Origin: Chloroflexota bacterium
Lineage (GTDB): Bacteria; Chloroflexota; Ktedonobacteria; Ktedonobacterales; Ktedonobacteraceae
Direction: 5' to 3'
Length of the DNA stretch: 42,444 nt
NCBI GenBank assembly: GCA_902810755.1
Contig: CADDYT010000046.1
Coordinates: 1-42,444 of the forward strand
Position 1 is the stretch's first letter; every line of letters begins with the position of its first letter. Made by a program: the position numbers and the translations under genes. This document shows positions 8,263 through 34,177 of this stretch, piece by piece. Below the pieces are notes generated by a model, which worked only from the letters and a program-made list of their open reading frames with translations, did not search any database and was not told where the DNA came from.

Positions 8263-8277
8263 AGTGGCCTCCTTTAC

Positions 8278-9513: not shown

Positions 9514-9555
9514 GATACACGCTCCTATCGGGCGGTCACTGTGAGACGCACTACG

Positions 9556-11720: not shown

Positions 11721-11750
11721 AAGCGCGTTCCCCTGGAGCTTTCCAGACAG

Positions 11751-13295: not shown

Positions 13296-14449
13296 ACTTT
13301 CGCATCCTGATTGTGCCTGTTTTGCGCTGCTGCGCCCGCCAGTGTCTTTATATGTAAAGCGATTTCTCGCGTTGCGTCCGGTTTCGCGATTCTCCCGGCT
13401 GCCTGAGCCATTGACTCAAGTAATGAACGAGACGAGAGAACAGTTATTACACGATCCAGCAGCATTTCGGGTGTCAGGTCATCGTCGCGAATGACCTGCG
13501 CCGCCTGCTGGCGTCCAAACATGGCCGCATTCACCTCCTGCGGTGAGCCACCGAGGGCGGGCGGCAGCGGAACCAGGATGCTCGGTTTGCTCAAGACGGC
13601 CAGTTCGCTCAGGGTTGCCGCCCCGGAGCGACACAGGACCAGCTCTGCTGCTTGCAGGGCCGTCGGCATCTCGGCGTCCATGTATGGAACCAGATGGTAA
13701 CGCTGTTTCTCCTGATCGGCCAGGTTCGCCATCGTTTGTTCAGCCAGTTCGCGTGTTTCGTCAAATAGCTTCTTGCCGCTAATTTGCAAAACCTGACAAT
13801 GGGTGAGAAGCCCTGGCAGGGCGTGACAGACAACCTGATTGAGATGTCTGGCCCCCTGGCTGCCTCCGGTGACGAGCAGGACTGGCGCTTCCGCCTCCAA
13901 CCCCAGCGAGCGCCGCGCCTCCTGTGGAGAGCTGGCCCGCGCCTCCAGGATTGCTTCTCGTACCGGATTACCGGGTTGCAACGTTTTCTGTCTCGGAAAG
14001 TACGCCAGCGAATCGGCGAAAGCGACCGAAATGCGCGTCGCCAGCGGCGCGAGCAGGCGGTTTGACAGGTTGGGCGAGACATCTTCCTGATGCATCAGGA
14101 AAGGCACGCCATTGAGACGAGCCGCCACTCCCGCCGGAACCGCGACATAGCCGCCACTGGTAAAGACGGCGTGCGGGCGAAACGTGCGCACGATGCGCAC
14201 CGCCTGGGCTATACCCACCGGCACCCTTGCCACCCCCGTTACCGTTTTCCATGAGATGTACCGTTGCAACTTGCCAGCCTTGATAATGGCGTAAGGGAAA
14301 CCCATCTGTGGGGCCAGTTCGGTTTCCAGACCATCGTCACTGCCCAGGTACAAAATCTCGGCCTGATACTCCTTCTGTAACTGCGTCGCCACCGCCAGAG
14401 CCGGGTAGATGTGACCCCCGGTGCCGCCGCCGGATACTAACACTCTCAT
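13292..14449 (-). CDS. murG: UDP-GlcNAc--undecaprenyl-PP-MurNAc-pentapeptide transferase MurG
   Basis: A membrane-associated GT28 glycosyltransferase that turns lipid I into lipid II. From the ATG at 14449 it is 385 residues and opens with the family motif MRVLVSGGGTGGHIYPALA. Other motifs are FTSGGYVAVPAGVAARL, LLVTGGSQGARHLNQ and CRSGAATLSELAVLSKPSILVPLP, then NAAMFGRQQAA for UDP-GlcNAc binding. The usual HEQN acceptor-site motif is replaced by HQED. The frame is open for 33 codons further upstream, but that part is low-complexity spacer without a ribosome site, so I exclude it. A GGTGGG is about 9 nt before the chosen ATG. The stop overlaps the murC start. Confidence 0.95.
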   Translation of the reverse strand: MRVLVSGGGTGGHIYPALAVATQLQKEYQAEILYLGSDDGLETELAPQMGFPYAIIKAGKLQRYISWKTVTGVARVPVGIAQAVRIVRTFRPHAVFTSGGYVAVPAGVAARLNGVPFLMHQEDVSPNLSNRLLAPLATRISVAFADSLAYFPRQKTLQPGNPVREAILEARASSPQEARRSLGLEAEAPVLLVTGGSQGARHLNQVVCHALPGLLTHCQVLQISGKKLFDETRELAEQTMANLADQEKQRYHLVPYMDAEMPTALQAAELVLCRSGAATLSELAVLSKPSILVPLPPALGGSPQEVNAAMFGRQQAAQVIRDDDLTPEMLLDRVITVLSSRSLLESMAQAAGRIAKPDATREIALHIKTLAGAAAQNRHNQDAKV

Positions 14450-14631
14450 ACGCAATACAACCCACCAGACTTTATATGCACCAGACCCGGTCAGAGGGTG
14501 GGCCGGAAGGGCAGGCTCCGGGCCGGGCCTGCTCCCGCTGGCCATCACGGGTGCTGCAAGCCCTACCCCTCCATGCCTCCAGCCCTCTGGCCGGTTGCCT
14601 GGATAACCCGGTTTACTCCGGTGTCTCTTCT
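14450..14631. other. GC-rich spacer between ftsW and murG
   Basis: A 182-bp gap, unusual inside this otherwise compact cluster. It holds GC-rich, partly palindromic words (GGGCCGGGCCTG, CTGGCC, CTCTGGCCGG) that look like a degraded relative of the GGCC repeat. No gene is supported. I see no clear promoter. Confidence 0.4.
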
Positions 14632-16230
14632 TTACGCTTTCTGCCTGCGCTGGCCAACTGTCAGGGTGCGGCGCAACGCGGGCATCTCCGGCTCGCGAAT
14701 GTAACGCGAGATGTTGAGCAAGACGCCGATAGCCGCCATGGAGACGACCAGCGACGAACTGCCATAACTAATGAACGGCAGCGGCACCCCTGTGTAGGGA
14801 ATGGTGCCGGTGGTGGCCCCGATGTTAATCATGGCCTGCAAGACCAGCCAGGTCGTGATCCCCGTTGCCAGCAACGCGCCGTACATGTCCTGCGTGCGCC
14901 GGGCCAGCCGGAAGCCGCGAAAAGCGAGACACAAGAATAAAATGACGATAATGGCGGAACCGAGCAGGCCCAGTTCCTCACCGATAATGGCCATAATCGA
15001 GTCCGTATAGGGCATCGGCAGGTAGCCCGTCTTCTGACGGCTCGCGCCGAGACCCACGCCAAACCAGCCGCCCGAACCCAGAGCCAGCAACGACTGGTAG
15101 AGTTGCATGTTATATCCCGTAATATTGCTAAAGGGGTTGAGAAACCCCAGCAGACGCAGGGCGCGGTAGCCGCTGAACGCCTCCTTGAGAAAGATGAGGC
15201 CGCCGCAGACCATCGCCAGCAAAAACTGCACGATATTCGCGCCCGCCGTAAAGAACATGGCCGTCGCCATCCCGGCGATGATAATGGCCGTTCCCATGTC
15301 GTTTTCCAGCAGGATCAGGCCGAGAATCAGGCCGACCAGGATGACGAAGGGGGCCAGGCCGTAGAGAAAGGTGCCAACCTGGTTACCCTTGCGCGCCAGC
15401 CAGTCCGCGATATACAGAGCCAGCACCAGCTTGGTCAGCTCGCTCGGCTGAAACGAGAAGAACGAGCCGAAGGCCAGCCAGCGCGACGCTCCATACACTG
15501 TGACGCCAAATTTCAGCACGATCACCAGCAGGGGCAGCACAATCGCCATGCCGATCAGCGAGAAACGCCGCCAGATGCGATAATCGACACGCATGGTCAC
15601 CAGCATGGCCGCCAGCCCTACCACCATGCCCCAGAACTGGCGCAGGAAAAAGTAGGACGGGTCACCATAGTAGCGCGCTGCCGTGAACGAGCTTGCGCTG
15701 TAGACCATCACCAGACCGATGCAGAGCAGGGCCAGCGTGATGACCAGCAGCCAGGGATCGATCTTGCCCGCCACACGCGGCAGGCGCATCTCCAGCTCGG
15801 CCAGCTTTTTCTGCTCCTCCGCGCTGATGACCTGCACGCTCACATCTTCCTGCTCCGATTCCCACAGCCGCCAGCCACCGGTAACGCCGCTACGCCTGCC
15901 CACCGGCGCCCCATCGGCACCCGCACCACGCCCGCGCGGCAGCCTCTTGCGCGGTCCAACAGGAGTGGCAGGAGTGGCAGAACGCGCCAGCGCCTGCCGC
16001 GCGCCAGCGGGCCGAGGGCGGGCGCCGCCGACGCCAGAGAGCGACCGCCTGCTCTCCGCCCCGATCCGGCTCGCACCCACACGCGCAAGCGACTCGCCAT
16101 GCTCCTGCGCGTAGCTTTCCAGCGCGGGCGAACGCATCACCGGCGTCTGCTCCTGCTGGCCCTTGCGCCGCTCCAGTCGCGTCCGGCTCTCGCCTGCTCT
16201 GTTCGGTTGTCTCCCGTTGTCGCGTGACAT
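14632..16230 (-). CDS. ftsW: Lipid II polymerase / division protein FtsW
   Basis: SEDS-family glycosyltransferase that polymerises lipid II at the septum together with FtsI. It is 532 residues from the ATG at 16230, which has GGAGA 9 nt upstream; the in-frame ATG at 16260 has none. The first 150 or so residues are an Arg/Gly/Ala-rich cytosolic tail, much longer than normal. About ten membrane helices follow. Conserved pieces are GLVMVYSASS in the first helix, YGASRWLAFGSFFSFQPSELTKL, ENDMGTAIII (with the catalytic-loop Asp) and the late PYTGVPLPFISYGSSSLV. It sits between a small hypothetical gene and murG. Confidence 0.95.
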   Translation of the reverse strand: MSRDNGRQPNRAGESRTRLERRKGQQEQTPVMRSPALESYAQEHGESLARVGASRIGAESRRSLSGVGGARPRPAGARQALARSATPATPVGPRKRLPRGRGAGADGAPVGRRSGVTGGWRLWESEQEDVSVQVISAEEQKKLAELEMRLPRVAGKIDPWLLVITLALLCIGLVMVYSASSFTAARYYGDPSYFFLRQFWGMVVGLAAMLVTMRVDYRIWRRFSLIGMAIVLPLLVIVLKFGVTVYGASRWLAFGSFFSFQPSELTKLVLALYIADWLARKGNQVGTFLYGLAPFVILVGLILGLILLENDMGTAIIIAGMATAMFFTAGANIVQFLLAMVCGGLIFLKEAFSGYRALRLLGFLNPFSNITGYNMQLYQSLLALGSGGWFGVGLGASRQKTGYLPMPYTDSIMAIIGEELGLLGSAIIVILFLCLAFRGFRLARRTQDMYGALLATGITTWLVLQAMINIGATTGTIPYTGVPLPFISYGSSSLVVSMAAIGVLLNISRYIREPEMPALRRTLTVGQRRQKA

Positions 16231-16305
16231 CGCTACTTTTCTCCGGCCAGGCCTTGACATAGAACAAATTTTCGAGTATAGTTATTTACAGGAAGCAGGA
16301 GAGGG

Positions 16306-16632
16306 TTATTTCTCCTGACCGCCGGGAGCGGACTGTTCCTGCATCAGTTGCAGGGCCTGCTCCAGATCGAGATCATTCAGCGCCTGCGAATGTACCTGCT
16401 GCAGGTCGACGACCTTGATACCCTGTCCGCGCTGCAATTCAGCCCAGGGGTCGTTGCTCAACATTGGTATTTCCGGTACTTCAGCGTTGGCTGCCAGCTC
16501 TGGCCCGGCGCTGGCTGTCGCCTCTCTGGAGAGGCCGAGCAGTTCGCGCCAGGTGTCGCTCAGTTCCGGCTCGTCTTGCCCGGCCTGCTGAGCCGGTTCT
16601 TCCTGCTGATGCTTATTCTGTTCGGATTGCAT
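16306..16632 (-). CDS. Small acidic hypothetical protein in the dcw cluster
   Basis: A 108-residue acidic, Gln/Glu-rich protein with no recognised domain, no membrane helix and no Cys. It has a disordered N-terminus (QNKHQQEEPAQQAGQDEPEL), a middle with DTWRELLGLS, and a C-terminal part likely to be helical (VVDLQQVHSQALNDLDLEQ). The ATG at 16632 follows AAGGAAG by a short spacer; the frame extends 15 codons further without a site. It shares the strand and probably the transcript of ftsI (91 bp away over a repeat) and ftsW. Its place suggests a lineage-specific division or cell-wall accessory protein, by inference only. Confidence 0.6.
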   Translation of the reverse strand: MQSEQNKHQQEEPAQQAGQDEPELSDTWRELLGLSREATASAGPELAANAEVPEIPMLSNDPWAELQRGQGIKVVDLQQVHSQALNDLDLEQALQLMQEQSAPGGQEK

Positions 16633-16690
16633 GTCTTCCTTCGCTATCCTGTTTGTTTGCCCGACCGTGCCGCCCAATCGGCCGCCCCGG

Positions 16691-16752
16691 CCAGGCCACC
16701 CGCAAGGGGTGGCCCTACTATATACGAGGCCCTCCGACCGCCCCTGTATAGC
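16691..16752. repeat. GGCC-hairpin REP-like repeat between ftsI and orf
   Basis: One full hairpin at 16694-16714 (GGCCACCC, GCAAG, GGGTGGCC) is followed by CTACTATATAC, that is GTAG in front of the hairpin on the minus strand. A weak remnant of the partner arm (TGTATAGCC) ends the element. It lies inside the dcw transcript and could act as an RNA hairpin there. Confidence 0.75.
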
Positions 16753-16767
16753 CAGACGATTGCGATT

Positions 16768-18540
16768 TTATGCTTTTAGATCGTCGGGCGGGACCTGATA
16801 GTAGGCCATGAGTTGTTGGGCGATGGCTTTCCAGAGGGGAGCCGCCGCCGTGCCGCCATAGATGGTGGCCTGTGGCCGGTCTATTTTGACCAGGATGACG
16901 AACTGCGGGTTCTGCGCCGGGATGAAGCCGGCGACCGAGGCTTCCGTCTCGGAGTCAGAGATCCCCTGCGTCGTCGCGGTTCCCGTCTTGGCGGCTACTG
17001 TGTAACCCGGCACTTTGGCCGTCTGCGCCAGTCCGATAGTTGCCGCCTCCTCTAACATGCCTGTCAGCAGTTGAGCCGCGCGGGCGCTGATGACGCGCCG
17101 CACTACCTGTGGCTGCGTCGTCGCGTCCCGCCCGTTGTTGTCGATTGCGGCCAGCAAGTACGGGCGCATCATGACGCCGCCGTTGGCGATGGCTTCGTAG
17201 GCCAGCGCGACCTGGAGCGGCGTGGCTTCGATGCTCTGGCCGAACGCCTGGCGGGTCAGGTCGCTGGGCGTCCAGACCTGCGGGCTGTTCGTCGGCGTGC
17301 GATAGTAGCCGGGGGCCTCCGGGCCATCATGGAGACCGGTGGGCTGGCCGAAGCCGAAGCGCGCCAGGTACGGGTAGTAGCGCGACGCGCCTAAGATGTT
17401 GTGCGCTACGTAGGCGGCGCCGACGTTGGCCGAGTGTTCCAGCACCTGCGTCATCGTCTCCGTCCCATAGGCCAGATCATCCCAGTTATAGACCGTTGGC
17501 GCGTCCGGGAAGGTGATGTAGCCCGGATCGACCAGCGTGGTCTCAGGCGTGATCAGTTGCTGGTCGAGCGCGGCTGCCATCGTCACGGCCTTCATCGTCG
17601 ACCCCGGCTCATAGGCGCAGTAGAGCGCCGGATTGAAGTAGACATCTTCACTGCCCAGACAGCCCTTCTGGTTGGCGTACTGCCAGTATGAGTTCGGGTC
17701 GAAGGTTGGATAGCCGGCCATCGCCACCACCGCCCCGGTGCGCGCGTTGAGAACCACTACCGTGCCGCTCTGCGCCCCCAGTTGCTTCACCGCCTGCGCC
17801 AGCCCCTGCTCTACAAAGAACTGGATATCGCTATTGATGGTCAGCGTCAGGTCAGCGCCGGACACCGGGTTTTGCTCGGTGCTGGGGCCGACGACGAGCG
17901 GGTTGCCGTTCAGATCGGTCTCAGCCGTCAGGCTGCCCGGCTTGCCCGAAAGCAGCGCGTTGTACTGACCCTCGATGCCGTAGACACCCTGATTGTCGGT
18001 ATCGCTCTGCGTCACGTAACCGAGAAGTTGCGCCGCCAGGGAACCCTGCGGATAGACACGCCAGGTTCGCGAGACCAGAAAGATATCCGGCAGGTGCATC
18101 GCCTGTAATTGCTGGCTCTGCGTCGGGTCGATGCGCGTCGCTATGCGTATCGTCTGCAGGCCACTGTTAAAGTCCTTGTATAACCGATCTTCCGAGACCT
18201 GCGGCAGAACGTGATGCAGTGAGTGAATCAATTCCGCCAGGCTGGCCTGGTAATCGTCTGGATGGTCAACCGAAAACTGGATCGGCTCGATATATACGTC
18301 ATCGCGCACAACGTTGGTTGCCAGGATGCGCCCCTGGGCATCGTAGATGAGGCCGCGAGGCGCGTTCAGCACGATATTCTGTATATGTTCGTCGAGGGCC
18401 AGCTGCGCCAGGTTATGGCCGCTATGCGCTTCAACGACCTGCCAGTAGTAGAGCCGACCCAGCAGGATCAGCATGCCGAAACAGACCAGCAAGAAAATGA
18501 GCATCTGTCGATTGCGGGCGCGTCTCAGTTCCTGGCTCAC
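16768..18540 (-). CDS. ftsI: Septal transpeptidase FtsI (class B penicillin-binding protein)
   Basis: Cross-links septal peptidoglycan outside the membrane. It is 590 residues. A short cytosolic N-terminus and one membrane helix (MLIFLLVCFGMLILLGRLYYW) precede the dimerisation domain (starting near APRGLIYDAQGRILATN). The transpeptidase domain has S314-T-M-K317 (EPGSTMK), S370-A-N372 and KTGTA near 516. No PASTA domains follow. It lies 24 bp after the FtsL-like gene, in the usual order. The gene could be named pbpB or ftsI; its position next to ftsL and ftsW supports the division role. Confidence 0.95.
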   Translation of the reverse strand: MSQELRRARNRQMLIFLLVCFGMLILLGRLYYWQVVEAHSGHNLAQLALDEHIQNIVLNAPRGLIYDAQGRILATNVVRDDVYIEPIQFSVDHPDDYQASLAELIHSLHHVLPQVSEDRLYKDFNSGLQTIRIATRIDPTQSQQLQAMHLPDIFLVSRTWRVYPQGSLAAQLLGYVTQSDTDNQGVYGIEGQYNALLSGKPGSLTAETDLNGNPLVVGPSTEQNPVSGADLTLTINSDIQFFVEQGLAQAVKQLGAQSGTVVVLNARTGAVVAMAGYPTFDPNSYWQYANQKGCLGSEDVYFNPALYCAYEPGSTMKAVTMAAALDQQLITPETTLVDPGYITFPDAPTVYNWDDLAYGTETMTQVLEHSANVGAAYVAHNILGASRYYPYLARFGFGQPTGLHDGPEAPGYYRTPTNSPQVWTPSDLTRQAFGQSIEATPLQVALAYEAIANGGVMMRPYLLAAIDNNGRDATTQPQVVRRVISARAAQLLTGMLEEAATIGLAQTAKVPGYTVAAKTGTATTQGISDSETEASVAGFIPAQNPQFVILVKIDRPQATIYGGTAAAPLWKAIAQQLMAYYQVPPDDLKA

Positions 18541-18564
18541 TTCTTGCCTCCTTCCTTTTCGGCG

Positions 18565-18969
18565 TTATGGTTTGAATCGCTGCTTGAGATCATCGCTCGG
18601 AATCGGCCTGAGATGCGGGACGATCACCACCTGAACGGTCGAGGGGTCGGCGGGAACCAGTCCCATGTGCTTTGCCTGCGCAGCGATATAGGCCGGTGAT
18701 TGCTCCTTCGCGATAGTATTTACCAGGTCCTGATTCTGACGCTGCAATGCCGACTCCTGCGCGTGCAGGGCAAGCAAGGTATTGTTGGCGCTGATGGCCT
18801 GGTTGAGTTGCGACAGGTAGAGCAGGGCCATCAGACCGATGAGCAGAACGCTACAGACGGAGAGCGCGACCGGCCCCATGTGGAAGAGAAACGGGTAGAG
18901 TTGCCGTCGTCGCTTCGCAGCCTGAATCGGCCCCGGCGCTACGCTTTTCGGTCTTTGATCTTTCGTCAT
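18565..18969 (-). CDS. ftsL: FtsL-like bitopic division protein
   Basis: A 134-residue protein with a basic cytosolic tail, one membrane helix (MGPVALSVCSVLLIGLMALL) and an outer coiled-coil region rich in Q, N and L (LNQAISANNTLLALHAQESA). This is the FtsL/DivIC layout. A short tail with AKHMGLVPADPSTVQ matches the usual end of FtsL-type proteins. I chose the ATG at 18969 (AAGGA about 10 nt upstream); a GTG at 19029 is in frame but lacks a site. FtsL is poorly conserved in sequence, so the name rests on topology and on the position between rsmH and ftsI. Confidence 0.8.
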   Translation of the reverse strand: MTKDQRPKSVAPGPIQAAKRRRQLYPFLFHMGPVALSVCSVLLIGLMALLYLSQLNQAISANNTLLALHAQESALQRQNQDLVNTIAKEQSPAYIAAQAKHMGLVPADPSTVQVVIVPHLRPIPSDDLKQRFKP

Positions 18970-19047
18970 CTGCCGCAAATCCTTGAGACTCGAACAGGCC
19001 CTGCTGTCAGAGCCTGCTGTGTTATGCACGGCATGGCGTGCGACGCA

Positions 19048-20046
19048 CTACGAACCGACGACTATTTCAGCAGCCCGCAGCCGTGCGCTGCGAGCGCGAG
19101 GGTTAGCCAGAATCTCCTCCGCTGTCGGAGTGACCGGCTTGCGAGTCAGCAGACGCAGGCGAGCTTTGTGGCCGCACACACAGACGGGTGTGCCGGGCGG
19201 GCAGATACAATCCCTGCTCTCGCGCCGCATAAACTCCTTAACCAGTCGATCCTCCAGCGAATGAAACGAAATAATGACCATGCGGCCCGCGCGCTGCTCC
19301 ACACCTCCATACTCACTTTCTCTTCCGCCTGCACGCATCGCGTCGGCAGTCAGGATATCCAGTACCTGCGGCAGCGCCGTCTCCAGTTGCTCCAGTTCAC
19401 GGTTAACCGCGATGCGTAGCGCCTGAAAAATGCGCGTTGCCGGGTGAATTGCACCGTATTTATAAGGAACACCTGCCGCAGCCAGCGCCGCCAGCCGGGC
19501 AGTTGTGCGAATCGCGCCTTTTTCTCGCTCGCGCACGATACGTCGGGCAATCTGGCGCGAGCGATGTTCTTCGCCATAGCGCCAGAAGATGTCGGCCAGC
19601 TCCTGCTCGCTCAGCGTATTAACCAGATCGGCGGCGGTCAGGGCCTGCGACTGGTCGAGACGCATATCCAGGGGTCCCTCGGCGCTGAAGGAGAAACCGC
19701 GTTCGGCGCTCTCCATCTGATCGGATGAGAAACCCAGATCGAGCAAGACACCCTGTACAGACACAAAACCGGCCTCGTTTGCGAGACGGGCCAGTTCGGC
19801 GAAGTTCCCGTGTACCAGTACCAGCCGCCCTTGCTCCACCATCTGCGGAAGACGCTCCCGCACCCGCTCCAGCGCCAGGGCATCGGTATCGATTCCTAAG
19901 ACCTTCCCGTCGGGGGCCGACCGCTCAAGGATAGCGGCAGTATGCCCACCTCCGCCAAGCGTGCCATCGATATAGTGACCGCCGGGCGCGGGCCGAAGAT
20001 ATTCCAGCACCTCTTCCAGCATCACCGGCACATGTCGTGTTTGCAT
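19048..20046 (-). CDS. rsmH: 16S rRNA m4C1402 methyltransferase RsmH (MraW)
   Basis: A SAM-dependent enzyme that methylates N4 of C1402 in the decoding centre of 16S rRNA. It is 332 residues. The SAM-binding motif is YIDGTLGGGGHTAAILE, followed by VLGIDTDALAL. The family signatures LLDLGFSSDQMESAERGFSF and MVIISFHSLEDRLVKEFMR are present. The C-terminus has three Cys (CICPPGTPVCVCGHKARL) typical of longer RsmH proteins, then LTRKPVTPTAEEILANPRARSA split across the usual conserved end. It lies 70 bp after mraZ, the standard neighbour. Confidence 0.97.
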   Translation of the reverse strand: MQTRHVPVMLEEVLEYLRPAPGGHYIDGTLGGGGHTAAILERSAPDGKVLGIDTDALALERVRERLPQMVEQGRLVLVHGNFAELARLANEAGFVSVQGVLLDLGFSSDQMESAERGFSFSAEGPLDMRLDQSQALTAADLVNTLSEQELADIFWRYGEEHRSRQIARRIVREREKGAIRTTARLAALAAAGVPYKYGAIHPATRIFQALRIAVNRELEQLETALPQVLDILTADAMRAGGRESEYGGVEQRAGRMVIISFHSLEDRLVKEFMRRESRDCICPPGTPVCVCGHKARLRLLTRKPVTPTAEEILANPRARSARLRAAEIVVGS

Positions 20047-23790: not shown

Positions 23791-24510
23791 TTGAAGGTAA
23801 AGCTGCGTCCCATTGACCTGGCGCGAGCGGCAGGCATCAGTGCGCAGGCGGTGCGCGACTACGAGCGGCTCGGCTTCCTGCCTGCGGCAGAGCGCAGCTC
23901 GCAGGGCTATCGTCAGTACGGCCCACAGCACCTGCAAGCCATACTGGCAGCGCGTACTATGATCGCGGGGTTCGGCTGGGAACACGCGCTGCACATCATG
24001 CAGGCCATCCACCGGAACGACCTCACTACAGCTCTGGCGCTCATCGATGCTCGCCACGCCTCCATCCACGCCAGCCGCCGCGAAGTCGAAACCATGCTAC
24101 AGGCGCTTCAGGCCATCTCAACCGAGCTACCGCCCGCAACAGACGCTCCTGGCAGTAAAAAACTGCTCTCTATCGGCGAGGCAGCCCGGCGTGTCGGCGT
24201 GCGCGTCTCCGCCATCCGCTTCTGGGAAGAGCAGGGCCTTGTCCGGCCAGCGCGCGACAAAAGCAGCCAGTACCGCCTCTACGACGAGCAGCAGGTGCGC
24301 CTGCTCCAGATCGTCACCCTCCTGCGCAAGAGCGGTTACAACCTGGAAGCCACGCGCACTGTCCTCTCCCGGCTGGCAACCGGCACCCCGCAGCAGGCCC
24401 TGCAAGCAGCCCGACAGCGCCTCAACGACCTCTCCGCCGCCAGCCGCCGCTGCGCCGAAGCAACCGCTGCTGCGTGGCAATATATGCGCAGCAACTTTTT
24501 AGCCGGGTAA
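23791..24510 (+). CDS. Regulator with two MerR-type DNA-binding heads
   Basis: A 239-residue protein with two MerR-like winged helices. The first (about 4-70) reads IDLARAAGISAQAVRDYERL then GYRQYGPQHLQAIL. The second (about 128-195) reads LLSIGEAARRVGVRVSAIRF then QYRLYDEQQVRLLQIV. Each is followed by a helical stretch, so the chain is close to a tandem MerR dimer in one polypeptide. No Cys-rich metal site is seen. The TTG start has GAGGG 6 nt upstream. It diverges from the three-gene exporter operon, the usual place for a MerR activator of a drug exporter. The inducer is unknown. Confidence 0.85.
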   Translation: MKVKLRPIDLARAAGISAQAVRDYERLGFLPAAERSSQGYRQYGPQHLQAILAARTMIAGFGWEHALHIMQAIHRNDLTTALALIDARHASIHASRREVETMLQALQAISTELPPATDAPGSKKLLSIGEAARRVGVRVSAIRFWEEQGLVRPARDKSSQYRLYDEQQVRLLQIVTLLRKSGYNLEATRTVLSRLATGTPQQALQAARQRLNDLSAASRRCAEATAAAWQYMRSNFLAG

Positions 24511-24839: not shown

Positions 24840-27302
24840 ATGCACATCTGTCTGATTATCGATAACCCGGAAACGCCGCATCATCCCATTATTGCCAGTG
24901 TAGTGCAAAAGCTGAGCGCGGCCCATCGTGTGCGTATGCTCGATGTGCGCCAGCGCACGGGCGCGCAGGCCCTGGCAGAAGAGGAGCGGCATGCGCCAGC
25001 CGACCTCTATCTCTTGAAATCGCATGCGCCGCAGGCGCTGGAAGTCGCGCAGGCGCTCGAACAACGAGGCGCGCTGCTGGTCAACAGCTACGCCTCGACG
25101 CTGGCCTGTCAGGATCGCGTGCTGTTGAGTCAGCGCATGGAAGAGGCGGGCCTGCCCTGGCCGCGCAGCATGGCCTTCCCCTCACTGGCGCACCTGCTGG
25201 CTCAGGACGACCTGCTGGCGACGCTCTCCTTTCCACTCATCGTCAAAAGCCGCTACAGCAGGCGCGGCGACCTGGTGGCAAAGGTGGGGAGCAGCGAGCA
25301 ATTGCGCTCATACCTGCCGCAATGGAGCCAGGAGCCGATCGTGCTGCAACAATTTATGGCCGGTGACGGCTGGGACATCAAAATGTGGGTGATCGACGAG
25401 CAGATTTTCGCCGCGCGCAGGCGCACGCCGCTGGCCGGTGAGGGAAAGAAGGACTATCCCATCGGGCCGGACGAGCTGCCTGAAGCCTGGGCGCGTATCG
25501 CTCGCGAGATCGGGCGCGCCTTCCAGTTGCGGCTCTACGGCGTTGACCTGCTGGTCTCCGAGTCCGGGCCGGTCATCGTCGACGTGAACTCCTTTCCCGG
25601 CTTTCGCGGCGTCCCCGGCGCGGACGACGCTCTGGCGCAACTGGTGGAACACATCGGACAGGAAAGTCAACAGGGACATACAGACGGCGCGACAACTCTC
25701 TCCATCAACGACCTGCCAGCAGTAGTGAGGCGGCTGTGCGAGCGAGCGGGCCTGCTCCTGCTGCCCGGCGCGCGCGGCCCGGTCGATCTCTTCGTGCGCT
25801 ACCTGCGGCGCAAACCGGAGCGCGGCCTGGCGGTCATCTACCACGTCGATGAGCGGCACGCGGGCGGTAGGAGCGAGCAGTCACTGCCCACCCCGCCCCC
25901 CCCAGGCCACCCGCAAGGAGTGGCCCTACCATACACGATGACGGCCAACGAGCCAGAACATTCTGCGTATAGTAGGGCCACTCCCTTGCGGGTGGCCTGG
26001 GGGGAGAGCAGGGGGGCCTGGGGGCCAGAGCGAGCGGTGAGCCTGACGCTGGCCGAATCGGCCCTGGATGGCGCACGTATTCGCTTCAACGCGCAACAGG
26101 TCGAGCAGGCTGAACTCCAGGTAACGGAGACGGGCATCCTGCAGGCGACCGAGCCGGGTCTCTCGGTGCAGGCGTTCCCGGCGGATGCCGCGTTGCCCAC
26201 CCTGGCTGCCTGCTGCGACACCACGCCCCAGGGCCAGCTCTGGCAAGAACTGCAAAAGGCCGCGCGGCAGCAGTTGGGCGATGCGCGCTGGCAACTTATC
26301 GCGGCGGTCGCGCAGCCCGTGCGCTATAAGCCCGGCAGTCGCTGCGTCATCAGATACAGGCTGACCGTCAGGCGGGAGGGCGACGAGGGGCAGGGTGAGC
26401 AGAAGGCCCTGGCGATCTTTGGCAAAGTCTACGCCGATGCAGAGCAGGCACGGAATGTGCAGGCGATGATGCAGGCCCTCTACGCGGAACAGGCCGGGCA
26501 ATCGCTCCCATTTCTGCCGGAGCCGCTCGGCGTCAGCGATATTCCCGGCCTCGTCTTTAATGAGGCGGTCGAGCCGGGCGAGGATGGGTCGGAGAACCGG
26601 GTGAGGACGGGAAACGAGCGTTTTCGTTTTCAGGCTGAATACGGGCGCGGCGGCGCGGTGAGCAGGGTTATCGTGCCTGAAGAGGAGTTGCGGCTCACGG
26701 CGCGCGCGCTGGCGCAACTGCACACGAGCGCGCTGGTGCCGGGCAAGAAACGCATTGGAGGGCAGGAGGCGCGGCGAGCGCGCGAGCGCGCGGCCCTGCT
26801 GGCGGGCCACAGCCCGGCGCAGGCAAACGAGGTATTGCAACTGGCGCAACGATTGAGCGCCGCTCTGGAAGCGCAGCAGCCGGAGTGCTATCGACCCGCG
26901 CACGGCGGCTTCAAGCCCAGTCAGTTGCTCTTCCACAGCCATTGCGCCTTCGTCGTCGATTTCGACGGCCTCTGCCTGGCCGACGCCGCGCTTGACATCG
27001 GCTACTTCCTGGCATACCTGCGCCCGGCCTCGCTCTGGTATCATCGACCCGGCACGCGCCAGTGGTTCGAGGAGAGCGCGGCCCTGTTCACGGACGCCTA
27101 CCGTGAGGCTATGCGCGCCCGCGCTATCGCAGCGCAGGAGATAGAGGACAGCATCAGGCGGGCAAAGCTCTATGAAGCGGCTTTGCTTTTCAAAATCGCG
27201 ACCCGGCGCGTCAACCGGCTCAACAGCCCGCGTCCCGGCGAACTCGCCGCCATGCTCGACGAGGTGGCGCGCTGCCTGAGCCTGGCGCAGCAAGAGAGAT
27301 AA
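24840..27302 (+). CDS. ATP-grasp ligase fused to phosphotransferase-like domain
   Basis: An 820-residue fusion. Residues 1-275 form a RimK-like ATP-grasp domain, with the ATP lysine region FPLIVKSRYSRRGDLVAKV and the metal-binding end PVIVDVNSFPGFRGVPG. Residues 353-388 are encoded by a complete palindromic repeat. From about 440 on the chain resembles the APH/choline-kinase fold: AVAQPVRYKPGSRCVIRYRL, a PAHGGFKPSQLLF loop (688-698) and VVDFDGLCLADAALDIGYFL (705-725). In place of the usual HGD...N it has HGG...Q, so phosphotransfer activity is doubtful. ATP-grasp enzymes join a carboxylate to an amine. It is the first gene of a three-gene operon with a second ATP-grasp and an exporter, 23 bp before the next. 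The substrate is unknown. Confidence 0.85.
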   Translation: MHICLIIDNPETPHHPIIASVVQKLSAAHRVRMLDVRQRTGAQALAEEERHAPADLYLLKSHAPQALEVAQALEQRGALLVNSYASTLACQDRVLLSQRMEEAGLPWPRSMAFPSLAHLLAQDDLLATLSFPLIVKSRYSRRGDLVAKVGSSEQLRSYLPQWSQEPIVLQQFMAGDGWDIKMWVIDEQIFAARRRTPLAGEGKKDYPIGPDELPEAWARIAREIGRAFQLRLYGVDLLVSESGPVIVDVNSFPGFRGVPGADDALAQLVEHIGQESQQGHTDGATTLSINDLPAVVRRLCERAGLLLLPGARGPVDLFVRYLRRKPERGLAVIYHVDERHAGGRSEQSLPTPPPPGHPQGVALPYTMTANEPEHSAYSRATPLRVAWGESRGAWGPERAVSLTLAESALDGARIRFNAQQVEQAELQVTETGILQATEPGLSVQAFPADAALPTLAACCDTTPQGQLWQELQKAARQQLGDARWQLIAAVAQPVRYKPGSRCVIRYRLTVRREGDEGQGEQKALAIFGKVYADAEQARNVQAMMQALYAEQAGQSLPFLPEPLGVSDIPGLVFNEAVEPGEDGSENRVRTGNERFRFQAEYGRGGAVSRVIVPEEELRLTARALAQLHTSALVPGKKRIGGQEARRARERAALLAGHSPAQANEVLQLAQRLSAALEAQQPECYRPAHGGFKPSQLLFHSHCAFVVDFDGLCLADAALDIGYFLAYLRPASLWYHRPGTRQWFEESAALFTDAYREAMRARAIAAQEIEDSIRRAKLYEAALLFKIATRRVNRLNSPRPGELAAMLDEVARCLSLAQQER
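25898..26004. repeat. Complete BIME-like palindrome inside a coding region
   Basis: Arms 25898-25934 and 25967-26004 are complementary over about 37 bp with one mismatch and one missing base. Each arm is itself a GGCC hairpin preceded by GTAG (read outward from the loop), and TACTATAC or TACCATAC faces the 32-nt loop. The ORF reads straight through and gives a Pro-rich segment (PPPPGHPQGVALPY...). It lies between the ATP-grasp and phosphotransferase-like domains. Confidence 0.9.
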
Positions 27303-27325
27303 CCGGCGGCAGGAGGGAGATCAGC

Positions 27326-28258
27326 ATGCGTTTCTGTTTTATCATTGAGGAGCAATATCGCAATGAGCCGATGCCAATGGTCATTGGCGATCAACTCCGT
27401 CAATGGGGCCACACGGTCGATAAACTGGAGCCGCAGGTGATGGTGACGAACCTCTCTGCGCTCCCTTCATATGGCTATGATGCCTATGTCCTCAAAACGG
27501 TCTCAGACGGCCCCGGCCTGATTATTCTGGAGGCGGCGGAGGCGGCGGGCATCCTGACCATCAATAATTCGCGCGCCATTCGCCGCGTGCGCGACAAGGC
27601 GGTGGCGGCCTCGTTCGCGCGTGCGCACGGCCTGCCCATGCCGACCACCTACTTCGTCTCCCATCCGCGCCTGCTGACGCAAATCCCCCCGGCGGAGTAC
27701 CCGTTAGTGGTCAAGCCGAACAATGGCAGCTCCTGCCGCAACGTTTTCCGCTTGCAGACGCCTGACGATCCTGTACTGTATGAAATTGAGAAAGAGCAGG
27801 AGAAGTTCTTTCTCGCGCAGCCCTATATTGAAAACACTGGATATGATATCAAACTCTATGTCACGGGAAAAGAAGTCTATGCTGTCGCTAAAAAATCGCC
27901 GCTGCATGGGAGCATTCGGGAGGGCCTGATTCCCGTCACGCCGCAGATGCGCAGGCTGGCGCTGAACGTGGGCAAACTCTTCGGCCTGGTCATTTTCGGC
28001 CTGGATGTCGTTGAGACGCCGCAGGGATTGGTCTTGCTCGATATTAATGATTTTCCGAGCTTCGGCCAGGTGCCGCGTGCTGTGGCGCGGGTCGCCGAAT
28101 ATATTCTGCATGCCGCCAGCCATGCCGAGGTGCTGCGCGAGGAGCGGCTGGCGCGCAACCTGCGTCGTCGTGTGGCCCGAGAGGCGCAAAGAACGGCGAA
28201 AACGGCGAGAATGCGTCAGCCCGAAAATGCATTATCCTTACCTGGAAAAGACTTTTAA
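27326..28258 (+). CDS. RimK-like ATP-grasp ligase
   Basis: A 310-residue stand-alone ATP-grasp enzyme. It has the ATP lysine stretch YPLVVKPNNGSSCRNVFRL, a catalytic-loop segment YDIKLYVTGKEVYAVAKKSP and the metal/ATP-binding end LVLLDINDFPSFGQVP. A basic C-terminal tail (RRRVAREAQRTAKTARMR) follows. It resembles the ATP-grasp half of the upstream fusion in layout and in the DxNxFPxF motif, so the two may be paralogues acting in sequence. The ATG has GGAGGGAG about 6 nt upstream. It lies 23 bp after the fusion gene and 45 bp before the exporter. Ligation of an amino acid or peptide is likely, the substrate unknown. Confidence 0.88.
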   Translation: MRFCFIIEEQYRNEPMPMVIGDQLRQWGHTVDKLEPQVMVTNLSALPSYGYDAYVLKTVSDGPGLIILEAAEAAGILTINNSRAIRRVRDKAVAASFARAHGLPMPTTYFVSHPRLLTQIPPAEYPLVVKPNNGSSCRNVFRLQTPDDPVLYEIEKEQEKFFLAQPYIENTGYDIKLYVTGKEVYAVAKKSPLHGSIREGLIPVTPQMRRLALNVGKLFGLVIFGLDVVETPQGLVLLDINDFPSFGQVPRAVARVAEYILHAASHAEVLREERLARNLRRRVAREAQRTAKTARMRQPENALSLPGKDF

Positions 28259-28303
28259 CATCGCTCGCGCTTGATTGCTAGCGTGTAAGGCAAGGAGGGA
28301 ACT

Positions 28304-30832
28304 ATGTTCCTGTTCAAGTTTCTCTACCGCAACCTGAAAGGGTATCGTCTTCTTGTCCTGCTTGCCATTTTCGTGGCGGTCTTGCAGGTCAGCAGCGATA
28401 TCATTGCGCTCCAACCGCTGAAGTGGATTCCGAGCAAGGCCCAGAACCCTGGCAATGATCCGGCCTGCACCTTTCCTTTTCTCGGTCTAAATGATAATCC
28501 CGGCATTCTGGACTGGTTCGATACGCCCAGACTCGACCCATCGCTCAACCCGCCGCCGGGAGGCCATAATCCGGTGCCGCCGCCGACCTCGCCCTGCCCG
28601 GCCAATCCATCGGACCCGCGCACGCTGGTCAATCCCGATATCACGCATCACAGCGTGATCGGCGTAATTGTCTTTTCGATCATCGTCCTTATTGTTTTCG
28701 CCACTCTCAGCGCGGCGCTGGCATGGCTCGATCTCTTCCTGGCCGCCTACATCGCCCAGAGCCTGAGCGCGCGGCTGCGCAAACAACTGTTTGAACACCT
28801 GCAGCGTATCTCCCTCGACTGGCACGGCAAGCAGAAAAAAGGCGACCTCGTGCAGCGCATCACCAGCAACATCGCCGATATCGAGAAATTCGTCACCGAC
28901 GGCCTGGTCGATCTGCTGGTGGGCATCCTCACGCTGGTCGGCGTGGCCGCCATCATGCTCTTCTACAGCGTCCCCTATACCATTCTCTCGCTCGCCATCG
29001 CCCCGGCCCTCTTCGTGATCGTGCTGATCTACACGCGCAATATCAAGGCAGCCGCCAGGAAGCAAGCCAAGACCGGCGGGCAGGTGGCCGATGTCGCCAC
29101 TGAAGACATCAACGCGCTCACCGTCATTAAAGTCTTCACGCGAGAGGAGCGAGAGGATATGCGCTTTGGCGGGCGCGTGAGCGAGAACCGGGCAGCCGGG
29201 CTGCGCGCGGGCAGCCTGGCGGCGCAGTTCGCGCCACTGGTGGCCCTGCTCGTCGCCATCGGCACCGCAACCATCGTCGGCGTTGGCGGCTACGTGGCAT
29301 CCGGCAACCCTTTCATCGTTGGCCCCTTCCAGCTCCAGCCGGGCATCATCGACGCCGGCCTGATCGTCTCCTTCCTTTTCTACCTCAAGCTGCTCTACCA
29401 GCCGATGCGCGACCTCTCCAAGCTGACGACGCTGGCCAACGCGGCCTCTGCCGGGGCCGAGCGCATTCAGGAGGTGATGGAGCAAGCGCCGGAGGTCATT
29501 GAGAGCAATGTGCCGTTCCACGGGCCAACGCGGCTGCGCGGCGATATCCTCTTCGAGAACGTCACCTTTGGCTACATCCCGGAGCGGCCCGTCCTCAAGG
29601 GCATCAACCTGCATATCCCGGCAGGACGAAAGGTCGCGCTGGTCGGACTCTCTGGCGGAGGCAAAACGACGCTGGTCAAGCTCATTCCCCGCTTCTACGA
29701 AATCCAGCAAGGCTCGGTGAAAATCGACGGCATTGATAACCGCATGTTCCCGCTGCACGTGGTGCGCGGCAATGTGAGCATGGTCTTGCAGGACTCGGTT
29801 CTCTTCGAGGGAACTATCCGCGAAAACATCGAGGTCGGCAAGCCGGGCGCAACCGATGCCGAGATCATCGACGCGGCGAAAAAGGCGCAGATGCACGAGA
29901 CGATCATGAGTTTTCCCGACGGCTATAACACGCTGGTACGCGAGCAGGGCAAGAACTTCTCCGGCGGCCAGCGCCAGCGCCTGGCCATCGCCCGCGCCAT
30001 CCTGCGCGACGCGCCCATCCTGATCCTGGACGAACCCACCGCTTCGCTGGACGTCGAGGCCGAGGCCGAAGTTATGCGCGCGCTGGACACGCTGATCGTG
30101 GGGCGCACGGTAATCGTGATTTCGCACCGCCTCAGCACGCTGGGCAATGTCGATGAGATCATCGTGCTGAATGATGGGCGCATCGCCGAGCAGGGCAGCT
30201 ATATGGAACTGAAACGACTGGGCGGCATCTTCGCCGGGCTGCTGGAGGAGCAGAACCGCTACAGCGCGGAGCGACTGGCCGAGCGTGAGGGCAACAAATC
30301 TATCCTGCGCTCAGCCTTCGTCCCCTCGCCCGTCGGCTACGAAACGGTGCAGACCCCCCAGGTCTCCATGGGGCAGCAAAACTGGCCCCCGGTGGTCGTG
30401 CCAGCCCCGCAGTCACCACGCAACCGGCCATCGACCCCCGGCGTGCCTGTGACACCGGCGGCAAACAGGTTCGATGGGCAGGGCGGCAATGGCTCCGGGG
30501 CAATGTCGGCGCGGGGGCAGGGACGCGAACAGGGCATGCCGCGAGCGCGCCTGCGCGTGGAGGTTGATGGGCAGGTCGTCGGCGAGCGGCAGCTCGACAA
30601 GCCGGTAATGACGATTGGACGCCTGCCCAGCAACGATGTGCAGGTTCCCTCGCGCCGCGTCTCCCGCTTCCACGCCCGCCTGCGCTGGAGCAATGGCGCC
30701 TGGCTGATCGAAGATGTCGATAGCCTCAACGGCATCGCCTACCAGGGCGTGCGCGTCGACCGCCATCCCCTCGCCAACGGCGACCGCATCTTCCTCGGCC
30801 CCGGCGCCTCTCTCTATTATGAGACCCTGTGA
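28304..30832 (+). CDS. Type I ABC exporter with C-terminal FHA domain
   Basis: An 842-residue half-transporter. The membrane domain (about 1-370) has six helices; the first outer loop (about 36-110) is unusually long, Pro-rich, and holds two Cys. The ATPase domain has Walker A GLSGGGKTT (about 447), the Q-loop in VLQDSVLFEGTI, the signature NFSGGQRQRL (about 552), Walker B ILILDEPTASLD and VISHRLST. A disordered Pro/Gly linker leads to an FHA domain (about 745-842) with TIGRLPSND, SRFHARL and LNGIAYQG, the residues that bind phosphothreonine. An FHA fused to an exporter suggests gating by a Ser/Thr kinase, by inference. The ATG follows AAGGAGGGAA. It is the last gene of the ATP-grasp operon. 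Confidence 0.92.
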   Translation: MFLFKFLYRNLKGYRLLVLLAIFVAVLQVSSDIIALQPLKWIPSKAQNPGNDPACTFPFLGLNDNPGILDWFDTPRLDPSLNPPPGGHNPVPPPTSPCPANPSDPRTLVNPDITHHSVIGVIVFSIIVLIVFATLSAALAWLDLFLAAYIAQSLSARLRKQLFEHLQRISLDWHGKQKKGDLVQRITSNIADIEKFVTDGLVDLLVGILTLVGVAAIMLFYSVPYTILSLAIAPALFVIVLIYTRNIKAAARKQAKTGGQVADVATEDINALTVIKVFTREEREDMRFGGRVSENRAAGLRAGSLAAQFAPLVALLVAIGTATIVGVGGYVASGNPFIVGPFQLQPGIIDAGLIVSFLFYLKLLYQPMRDLSKLTTLANAASAGAERIQEVMEQAPEVIESNVPFHGPTRLRGDILFENVTFGYIPERPVLKGINLHIPAGRKVALVGLSGGGKTTLVKLIPRFYEIQQGSVKIDGIDNRMFPLHVVRGNVSMVLQDSVLFEGTIRENIEVGKPGATDAEIIDAAKKAQMHETIMSFPDGYNTLVREQGKNFSGGQRQRLAIARAILRDAPILILDEPTASLDVEAEAEVMRALDTLIVGRTVIVISHRLSTLGNVDEIIVLNDGRIAEQGSYMELKRLGGIFAGLLEEQNRYSAERLAEREGNKSILRSAFVPSPVGYETVQTPQVSMGQQNWPPVVVPAPQSPRNRPSTPGVPVTPAANRFDGQGGNGSGAMSARGQGREQGMPRARLRVEVDGQVVGERQLDKPVMTIGRLPSNDVQVPSRRVSRFHARLRWSNGAWLIEDVDSLNGIAYQGVRVDRHPLANGDRIFLGPGASLYYETL

Positions 30833-31244: not shown

Positions 31245-32540
31245 CTACACCCCGTTCGCCACGTACTTGATGATGCGCAGGACGGGGCGATCACCCAGGG
31301 AGGGCTGCGGCAGGTAGATCAACTGGGACTGCTCATTGATGGCGATGGTATGATGGCTGCCGCCGCCCAGGTAGTAGTTGCCCAGCGCCTTCAGGCCGCG
31401 CCCGCTTTCATCAAAGATCGAGATGCCGCCGGCGCAACCGACGAAGAGCAGGTGTAGCGGCGCGTCCAGGCGCACAATGTCGGGATTGTAGGCCAGCGGC
31501 AAGAGCGCGCCGGGAAACGGCTTCATCGTGTTCAAATCGACGTGTGCCAGGTTGTTGGAATCGACACAGGCCACAAAGGCTTCTCGCTGCTGCACGTCAA
31601 TTGTCAGCCCGTGCGGGGCCAGGCAGGCATCCGGCAGGCGAATCTCTGAGACGATTTTGAGCGCCACCGGGTCAATTACCGCCAGAAACGAGGGCGGCGT
31701 CTGTGGAGTATTGAGGTTCTGATCGACCAGCGGCAGTGTCACCAGAAAAAGGCGGTGGGTCACGGGGTCGTACTGGATATGCCCCACATCATCGCCAAAC
31801 GGTTTGTGAACGCCGATCTGAATCTTGCCGATCAGCTTATCGTCCGTGGCATCGATGACCGCCACGTTCTGATTTTTCAGCGCAATATTCGCGTCATCGG
31901 GGCTGATAGGCGCGCCAGGGTCGGAGACGAAGATTCTCTGGTCGGTGGGGTCATACTCAATGGCATCCGGGCTATCAGAGGGATCGAGCTTGATTTTATC
32001 AAGGATTTTGAACGGGCTTTGCTCGCTGAAGACGTAGATGATACCATCACCGGCGTCACCGGCAAAAACTTTGCCCAGTTCCGGCACGACCAGAACGCCC
32101 GCCGCCTGTGGAATATCGACAAGACCAACAACCCTGTTCAGCTTCGTATTGAAGACAACAATATTGCCATCGGTCTCCGCGTCAAAATCCGGGTTGTGCA
32201 GAATCGCCGCCTCTTTATCAGGATTCGGCCCCGTGTGAACGATAAAGAGCAGATGGGTTGCCGGGTCATAGGACTGGAAGTCGAAGTGATCAAAACGCTG
32301 CGCCTGCCCCGGCGCGAAGGGGTTCTGCGCCGTGCGGTGCGGATCCGGCAGCGCGTCCGGCAGGGGAATCTCCTGCGCAATCTGCAAGCGGTGCAGCGGT
32401 ATCGGCGTCGAGAAGCGAACAGCCTCCTCGACCAGGATAAAGAGCAGCAAGGCAAAGCTGACCGCGACCAGCAGCCACCAGCCGACGCGGCCCAGCCACC
32501 CTCCTCGCTGAGATGATGAAGCCACAGCCTGTTGAGCCAC
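31245..32540 (-). CDS. Membrane-anchored YVTN/YncE-type beta-propeller protein
   Basis: A 431-residue protein with one N-terminal membrane helix (VGWWLLVAVSFALLLFILVEE) and an outer propeller of repeated blades. The blades show the pattern hLFIVHTGPN, VVVPELGKVFAGDAGDG, RIFVSDPGAP, RLFLVTLPLVDQ, EAFVACVDSNN and LLFVGCAGGIS, as in YVTN/YncE proteins. The true start is the GTG at 32540, 6-7 nt after AAGGAGGGAA; a GTG at 32564 is in frame but without a site. It is probably attached to the outer face of the membrane. Ligand and role are unknown. It converges with the exporter operon. Confidence 0.85.
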   Translation of the reverse strand: MAQQAVASSSQRGGWLGRVGWWLLVAVSFALLLFILVEEAVRFSTPIPLHRLQIAQEIPLPDALPDPHRTAQNPFAPGQAQRFDHFDFQSYDPATHLLFIVHTGPNPDKEAAILHNPDFDAETDGNIVVFNTKLNRVVGLVDIPQAAGVLVVPELGKVFAGDAGDGIIYVFSEQSPFKILDKIKLDPSDSPDAIEYDPTDQRIFVSDPGAPISPDDANIALKNQNVAVIDATDDKLIGKIQIGVHKPFGDDVGHIQYDPVTHRLFLVTLPLVDQNLNTPQTPPSFLAVIDPVALKIVSEIRLPDACLAPHGLTIDVQQREAFVACVDSNNLAHVDLNTMKPFPGALLPLAYNPDIVRLDAPLHLLFVGCAGGISIFDESGRGLKALGNYYLGGGSHHTIAINEQSQLIYLPQPSLGDRPVLRIIKYVANGV

Positions 32541-32576
32541 GATCTTCCCTCCTTTTGCCAGCACTTGTTAGCCCCA

Positions 32577-32919: not shown

Positions 32920-34041
32920 TCACGGCGTGGAAACTTTTGATGGCGACGAGAAAAGCCGCGCGATAAGCCTTGCCAGCAGATAGAGGCCGACAAGGATAAA
33001 GATGAGAAAACTCTCGCTGCCCAGAATTGATAAAGCATATGCCGGTAGCTCAATAATAAGAGAGGCATTCCCACTTAAGTTCATTTTGCTCACCAGAACA
33101 CCCAGAACCACCGCCAGTGCAGTAATGCCTGCTGTTATCCATAGTACTTTTCCGCCTGCCAGGAGCCTTTTATGCAGCAAGATGAAAATCTGTACAATAG
33201 CGGTAATGAATGAGATTAGTATGCCAGCCAGAAACACAAGGAATGAGATGGCAAGCGCATCGGCCGCTGTCTGTTGCCCGCCTGCAAACGCGACAACAAA
33301 GGCCAGAACGATCGTAATAGTAGAGACAATTACCAGGGTAATATTGAGCAGCAGAGAATACAGTAATGCTTTGCGCCCCGTGAATCTCAGTTTTCGCGCT
33401 GCACCCTGCGGGGATAGAGCTACCCTTCTCGCCCTCAAAACCATGAAAGCGCACAGGAAAAGCGTGACGACTGCGGTAATAGCCTGTAGCGTAACCCCCA
33501 TCGAAGGGATGGGCGCTTCCAGAGCGATGATGATGCCGCCCACTCCGGTGAAAATACCCACAGACTGCCACGCGGGATGACCCGGATTTTTAAATGGATC
33601 ATCGCTTGCAGGCAGAGCTGGTTGAACAGGTTGTCTCTGATTGACACCTGGGACCGGCTGTTGTCGCCGATAGACGGTAGGAGCGGTAGCCGGATCGGGC
33701 TTTTTTTCAGGGATAAGCGATAAGAAGAGCAATTCAACGTCAGGCCCCAGACCAATCACGTTCTGGCTGCGAATGGCGCCGCCTTGCTGCACAGGCTGCT
33801 TGTTGATGAAAAGCGTGTTATGCGCGCTCAACTTATTGATGCGCCAGACGCCATGATCCAGGATAATTTCAGCGTGAAAGCGCGAGACGCTGGCTTCAGG
33901 GACGATGAGGTCGTTGCCGGGGTCGGGCTGGCGACCAATGCCGGTGCGTGCCTTTGTAATCCGAAACGTCTCTCCCTTGCGAGGCCCGCTCAGAAAGAGA
34001 ATCTCCCCCAACACTGGAGGTTGCCTGTTCACATTCATCAT
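32920..34041 (-). CDS. FHA-domain polytopic membrane protein
   Basis: A 373-residue protein. An N-terminal FHA domain (about 10-105) has TGIGRQPDPGNDLIVPE, SRFHAEI and the late LSAHNTLFINKQ, where H-N replaces the more common S/N-G pair. A Pro/Gln-rich linker follows, then six or seven membrane helices (for example LLYSLLLNITLVIVSTITIV). FHA binds phosphothreonine on protein partners, so the protein is a possible target or partner of the Ser/Thr kinase at 1822-3582; that is inference. The start is the first of two ATGs at 34041, with GGAGGT 6 nt upstream; the frame opens 39 codons earlier without a site. Confidence 0.85.
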   Translation of the reverse strand: MMNVNRQPPVLGEILFLSGPRKGETFRITKARTGIGRQPDPGNDLIVPEASVSRFHAEIILDHGVWRINKLSAHNTLFINKQPVQQGGAIRSQNVIGLGPDVELLFLSLIPEKKPDPATAPTVYRRQQPVPGVNQRQPVQPALPASDDPFKNPGHPAWQSVGIFTGVGGIIIALEAPIPSMGVTLQAITAVVTLFLCAFMVLRARRVALSPQGAARKLRFTGRKALLYSLLLNITLVIVSTITIVLAFVVAFAGGQQTAADALAISFLVFLAGILISFITAIVQIFILLHKRLLAGGKVLWITAGITALAVVLGVLVSKMNLSGNASLIIELPAYALSILGSESFLIFILVGLYLLARLIARLFSSPSKVSTP

Positions 34042-34177
34042 ACATCCACCTCCGAAAGGTGAATACCTCTCTATAGAAACAGAGAGTAAAGCATCTTTTC
34101 TATCTCTGTAGAGAAAGACGTTCAGACAGCGAAAAATCAGGCATCTTCTGGCGTACAAACAACTTCAGGTAGAACGT

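Follow-up and report, generated by a model that had tools for sequence, protein, structure and literature searches.

Most of what is known to date of inositol phosphorylation chemistry comes from plants, animals and fungi. Two papers describe inositol phosphate kinases as enzymes once regarded as eukaryotic, the recent exceptions being Lokiarchaeota and a giant virus (PMC8024741, PMC10897400), and no bacterial inositol phosphate kinase system was found in the open-licence literature that was searched. For Arabidopsis, a third paper reports that ITPK1 and IPK1 suffice for the production of inositol hexakisphosphate (InsP6) from inositol 3-phosphate (Ins3P) (PMC7618535). Here we investigate three adjacent genes of a Chloroflexota bacterium, which lie within contig CADDYT010000046.1 (GCA_902810755.1). 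The whole 42,444-nt stretch is referred to as the window, and coordinates are those of the window unless another locus is named. The genes encode two ATP-grasp enzymes, the first fused to an APH-fold domain, and an ABC exporter with an FHA domain. On balance we think that this trio is probably the Ktedonobacteria form of a bacterial module for the synthesis and export of inositol polyphosphates.

The three-gene cassette

Three plus-strand open reading frames (ORFs) are found at 24840-27302 (820 amino acids), 27326-28258 (310 amino acids) and 28304-30832 (842 amino acids), separated by intergenic gaps of 23 and 45 bp. A sequence-only reading of this DNA had described an operon of two ATP-grasp genes and an FHA-exporter gene as a candidate peptide-ligation system; the ORFs lie exactly at the positions it gave and on one strand, which bears out what it had observed. 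Pfam assigns a RimK-like ATP-grasp and an APH domain to the first gene, a RimK-like ATP-grasp to the second, and ABC_membrane, ABC_tran and FHA to the third. The features of the trio are listed here with the evidence for each.

24840..25670, plus strand: AG1, the ATP-grasp domain of the fusion (residues 1-277), motif IVDVNSFPGFRGVPG, proposed inositol-phosphate kinase (Pfam, AlphaFold2 model, fold matches, motif)
26037..27302, plus strand: APH-fold domain of the same ORF as AG1, about residues 400-820 (Pfam, model, fold matches, loop reading)
27326..28258, plus strand: AG2, the second ATP-grasp, motif LLDINDFPSFGQVP, proposed second inositol-phosphate kinase (Pfam, model with pLDDT 86, folds, motif)
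28304..30832, plus strand: ABC exporter, an MsbA-like half transporter with a C-terminal FHA (Pfam)

The linker between the AG1 and APH domains (residues 341-395) is of low model confidence. There is no small precursor gene, of the kind that accompanies the ligase in graspetide and other ATP-grasp RiPP systems, within the two intergenic gaps, the flanks not having been searched for short precursors.

Kinase and ligase features of AG1 and AG2

Are the two ATP-grasp enzymes kinases or ligases? Ligases of the RimK/LysX type generally have a Glu in their E-x-N metal motif, while the sequence D-x-N-x-F-P-G is characteristic of ITPK. The second metal motif of AG1, the AG1-like proteins and AG2 is D-x-N-x-F-P, for which maize ITPK1 has DINYFPG and RimK has EVNSSPG; aligned to the AG1 profile, maize ITPK1 reads VIDINYFPGYAKMPG and RimK reads VMEVNSSPGLEG. 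The Glu is replaced by D in all 17 AG1 and AG1-like proteins and all 20 AG2 proteins, and the complete D-x-N is present in 16/17 (the remaining one has D-x-D) and 20/20, or 36/37 overall. The motif ends in FPG in 16 of the 17 AG1 and AG1-like proteins and in FPS in all 20 AG2 proteins. LysX from the same class has E-I-N (2/2). At two other aligned positions Lys is present where LysX has Arg, in 37/37 and 36/37 of these proteins. For gene 1, 92 homologues score at E 0.001 or better, with identities from 96% to 27%, and for gene 2 there are 2063, of which the best 120 are listed (65-97% identity); the D, N, F and S of the AG2 motif are kept in all 120 listed. Sixteen acidobacterial ATP-grasps are mixed, with a motif D in 9 and E in 7, and Lys at the two positions in 11 and 16.

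In Pfam, RimK is the top match for both AG1 (49.9 bits) and AG2 (36.4 bits). Against a gathering score of 23, the inositol phosphate kinase family Ins134_P3_kin (PF05770) scores 33.6 bits with AG1 and 22.6 bits, just below the cut-off, with AG2, the best-matching stretch being confined to roughly the final third of the profile. PF05770 also matches the four ATP-grasps of an acidobacterial locus (L104) and does not match the single LysX control (L055). The sequence-only reading had named a match to a known housekeeping ligase as evidence against it; for both enzymes, all ligase models stayed below their curated cut-offs. With rimK_fam (TIGR00768, cut-off 143.4 bits) AG1 scores 74.6 and AG2 103.4 bits; with the LysX preATP-grasp family PF22626 (cut-off 27 bits) AG2 scores 16.7 bits and AG1 is unlisted at E 0.01, compared with 94.7 bits for the LysX control. 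A kinase function would call into question the database names of several close homologues, ribosomal protein S6--L-glutamate ligase or glutathione synthase/RimK-type ligase.

Fold lists do not separate kinase from ligase, as matches of both kinds differ by no more than a few Z units. Foldseek pairs AG1 with ArgX at E 7e-15 and with maize ITPK1 at E 1e-14; maize ITPK1 also has the highest identity to AG1 (24%) among the ATP-grasp rows listed by VIA-align. When the second half of AG1 is used as a profile, RimK chains take the first two places and maize ITPK1 the third, and for the acidobacterial ATP-grasps RimK comes first at 99 bits and an Entamoeba ITPK has 62 bits.

Genes associated with AG1 and AG2 in other phyla

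A scan of genome contigs with AG2 generated 21 loci. In five of these, labelled as belonging to other phyla (L013, L016, L017, L018 and L021), a gene for myo-inositol-1-phosphate synthase (MIPS) is 2 bp to 2.4 kb from AG2, and all five have an MFS transporter. Among the 14 genomes first examined, MIPS is present in 6/6 of the other-phyla genomes reached via AG2 and in 0/8 Ktedonobacteria. These other-phyla loci come from soil metagenome-assembled genomes whose sample codes resemble one another, and their labels may be wrong. TonB-receptor genes in L047 and L016 and an RND pump in L017 fit diderm hosts. In L047, MIPS, a 191-residue ORF, AG1 and APH are consecutive on one strand; the 191-residue ORF (L047 14070-14645) has no Pfam match. 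L098 belongs to the genome that also contains L018; there a beta-propeller phytase gene converges on APH and AG1, and the contig stops within AG1.

Genome samples were partial and, because only part of the first-look candidates was scored in large samples, large-sample counts are lower bounds. Clusters of related ATP-grasps are present in at least 5 of the 297 sampled Acidobacteriota genomes; a sixth hit, in G014, is its AG2 and not a cluster. The four clusters that were read (G058, G288, G328 and G344) each have four ATP-grasps and one MFS transporter. Phytase is found in 9/297 of these genomes, 4/5 with a cluster versus 5/292 without (Fisher p 2e-6, uncorrected for relatedness and with genomes assumed to be independent). 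The distance between phytase and the ATP-grasp cluster is a few kb at most in G288, G328 and G344; in G272 phytase is on another contig, and it was not found in G058, which has the four-ATP-grasp cluster.

These neighbours bear on two other explanations. It is unlikely, we believe, that AG1 and AG2 work as ligases of the RimK/LysX type, coupling an amino acid or a peptide to an acceptor, with the exporter removing the conjugate. The top fold and profile matches to LysX, ArgX and RimK, and RimK being the best Pfam match of both, are what such ligases would give; D-x-N instead of E-x-N, the two aligned positions with K for R, scores below the rimK_fam cut-off and the recurrence of MIPS and phytase in other phyla all argue otherwise. 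Genomic context and a motif like that of maize ITPK1 are the reasons why peptide ligation, the function originally put forward, is not favoured here and is kept as a rival.

A secreted natural product or envelope component based on inositol or another cyclitol, with MIPS supplying the cyclitol and the ATP-grasps possibly ligating or phosphorylating, seems to us quite improbable. It would account for the MIPS, glycosyltransferase and MFS genes beside AG2 in L016 and L017, the MraY/WecA-type glycosyltransferase and Mur ligase genes 5' of the cassette in L002-L004, and the flippase after two AG1-like genes in L045. However, phytase, which removes phosphates from inositol polyphosphates, partners three of the acidobacterial clusters and L098, and the glycosyltransferase of L016 and L017 did not recur at the other loci with MIPS.

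Conservation of the cassette in Ktedonobacteria

AG2, AG1, APH and the ABC-FHA exporter are together in 8 of the 21 loci (L001-L006, L014 and L020); in the last two the contig stops within AG2. A separate look at the class of Ktedonosporobacter rubrisoli identified AG1, at E 1e-40 or better, in 9/47 genomes, and in all nine AG2, APH and the FHA exporter are nearby. The suggestion that ATP-grasp enzymes and exporter form one recurring unit is therefore supported by nine other Ktedonobacteria loci in which the genes are together. Linkage stands for AG1, tied to the cassette in 9/9 genomes, but not for AG2, paralogues of which are present without the cassette in L009, L010, L012, L015 and L019.

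The remaining loci are varied. L011 has AG2 and ABC only. Six Ktedonobacteria loci have AG2 minus the other cassette genes (L009, L010, L012, L015, L007 with two AG2, and L008), although L007 and L008 are near a contig end and cannot be judged for a missing cassette. L019 has AG2 and neither the cassette nor MIPS on the stretch seen. Away from its cassette, the K. rubrisoli genome also encodes three AG1-like proteins of more distant similarity. The AG1-APH fusion of the window is also present in G034, and in the other eight of the nine cassette loci AG1 and APH are separate genes; their separation elsewhere means that the fusion links the functions of the two.

The APH-fold domain and the exporter

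The APH domain scores 45.3 bits with PF01636 (gathering score 23.2) over residues 533-730, and its model matches the folds of methylthioribose kinase, the lanthipeptide kinase LxmK and maltokinase. APH kinases usually have an Asp in an HGD catalytic loop. In the window the loop is HGGFKPSQ, and the D-to-G replacement is evident against glucosamine kinase. The loop could be read in 82 of the 92 gene 1 homologues; the other 10 are ATP-grasp proteins without APH in the Pfam column. The loop Lys is retained, and a 12-row alignment (A9) shows no variation at D393 and D395 of the DFDG motif. The domain may be a kinase for phosphate acceptors, for which no base would be needed, or a partner without activity. 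The lack of the Asp would suit transfer to a phosphate better than transfer to a hydroxyl group. That the domain is inactive or a non-kinase partner, leaving the chemistry to the ATP-grasps alone, is compatible with the other readings and is a doubtful but serious possibility: a G, A, S or T in place of the loop Asp in every protein read would suit it, while the retained Lys and the two invariant Asp would not, and a phosphate acceptor would make the loss of the base harmless.

The FHA domain of the exporter occupies residues 770-832 (30611-30799) and is present on all 10 Ktedonobacteria exporter homologues examined (nine cassette loci and L011). The exporter scores 399 bits with CphA_assoc_ABC (cut-off 880) and 389 bits with MsbA (cut-off 602), below both cut-offs. 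A cyanophycin-linked identity was rejected, the score being far under that of the CphA_assoc_ABC cut-off. Transporters of unrelated families are found beside related ATP-grasps elsewhere, namely ABC-FHA, MFS, an FHA-protein kinase-MFS fusion and a MATE/Wzx-type flippase. In Acidobacteriota the fusion adjoins phytase in both of the cases scanned (L104 8100-11186 and L103 3848-6946), and it is a second instance of a transporter tied to FHA. The flippase, of 734 residues, follows two tandem AG1-like ATP-grasps in K. rubrisoli (L045 8983-13184).

A proposed inositol-phosphate module

Building on the observed genes, linkage, folds and motifs, we propose a substrate, a kinase chemistry, a direction of transport and a means of gating. 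In the other-phyla relatives the starting Ins3P would be made by the nearby MIPS; where MIPS is absent, it would come from another source, such as import. The ITPK-like AG1 and AG2 would then phosphorylate inositol phosphate stepwise, spending ATP, and the APH-fold domain fused to AG1 would perform or assist a further step. The FHA-tagged ABC exporter would move the product out of the cytoplasm, with the FHA domain probably sensing Ser/Thr phosphorylation and so gating export. Phytase, where encoded nearby, could strip the phosphates again.

Several points weigh against such a module. The kinase activity of AG1 and AG2 is a prediction. Their nearest solved folds and profiles are those of LysX, ArgX and RimK, with PPIP5K2 and ITPK1 close behind. 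The catalytic-loop Asp is absent from 82/82 readable APH proteins (G in 73, A in 7, S in 1 and T in 1). MIPS is absent from 8/9 Ktedonobacteria genomes checked, and phytase was found in 0/9 of them. MIPS as a general partner of the cassette in Ktedonobacteria was rejected, the one genome that has it (G034) carrying it on a different contig from the cassette.

A wider proposal is that inositol polyphosphates, whether phytate-like or pyrophosphorylated, are made by bacteria of several soil phyla, either de novo or from imported inositol, using their own ATP-grasp kinases with the aid of an APH-fold protein, and export them via transporters that sense phosphorylation through FHA. Part of the phytate in soil would thus be bacterial. 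We put this forward tentatively, its chances being somewhat short of even. If true, a bacterial set of synthase, kinases, phytase and transporters would shift the eukaryotic boundary of the inositol phosphate kinases, would give studies of inositol phosphate chemistry a compact test system, and would bear on the origin of soil phytate.

Surroundings of the cassette

One further gene near the trio recurs at other loci.

31245..32564, minus strand: YVTN/YncE-type beta-propeller protein with a hydrophobic N-terminal stretch, a recurrent neighbour (similarity cluster across loci, profile matches)

It has a homologue in 6/9 other Ktedonobacteria cassette loci (L001, L002, L005, L006, L014 and L044), the L004 stretch stopping just past the exporter. 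It has no Pfam family at E 0.01, and hence no PF02333 match. The possibility of a divergent phytase was rejected; the profile matches are to the S-layer propeller 1l0q and YncE, with no phytase among the nine matches listed.

Also 5' of the trio is a gene for a MerR-type protein with two MerR DNA-binding domains in a single chain (23791-24510), which was rejected as a cassette regulator since none of the ORFs retained at the 21 loci matches it. A second FHA protein is encoded at 32920-34158, the FHA being followed by hydrophobic stretches resembling several membrane passes. Upstream of the trio on the minus strand are an ABC-2 transporter set and a division and cell-wall cluster (6688-20046) of MraW, a penicillin-binding protein, FtsW, a MurG-type protein, a Mur ligase, MurB, an FtsQ-type protein, FtsA and FtsZ. 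Between mraW and ftsW the longer ORFs, which were the ones scanned, included no recognisable mraY, murD, murE or murF.

At other cassette loci, a CHAT-domain / NB-ARC-type / TPR family flanks the cassette (L002 17413-20862, L003 17262-20885, L020 6935-9220 and L044 10304-14296), its domains having been scanned in L002 and the other three assigned by similarity. A queuosine-salvage protein, a Mur ligase and an MraY/WecA-type glycosyltransferase of 673-691 residues are encoded 5' of the cassette in L002 (4582-9725, where the domains were scanned), L003 (4870-9609) and L004 (4956-9762). Of that set, only the glycosyltransferase was seen in L044 (3-1130).

Comparison with known systems

RimK, LysX and ArgX ligases share fold and length with AG1 and AG2 and are their best overall profile and structure match. 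AG1 and AG2 differ from them in having D-x-N for E-x-N and K for R twice and in scoring below the family cut-offs; in addition, no amino-acid gene was seen among the neighbours scanned. Unlike the PPIP5K / Vip1 inositol pyrophosphate kinases, AG1 and AG2 have no histidine phosphatase domain, and the similarity of AG1 to these is very weak (E 0.07-0.16). The exporter has the half-transporter core of the MsbA-type and cyanophycin-associated ABC exporters, yet falls under both cut-offs and carries a C-terminal FHA.

IPK1 has a protein-kinase-like fold. The plant ITPK1/IPK1 route is the closest worked-out parallel to the proposed module. Like the eukaryotic lipid-independent InsP6 pathway of MIPS, ITPK1 and IPK1, the module would start from Ins3P and use an ATP-grasp kinase and a second kinase in series (PMC7618535), and the D-x-N-x-FPG motif of ITPK1 is common to AG1. 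In contrast to that pathway, the cassette system is bacterial, has an APH-fold partner without the catalytic Asp, is nearer in overall fold to LysX/RimK, and has two to four ATP-grasps encoded by genes that are clustered and linked to transporters.
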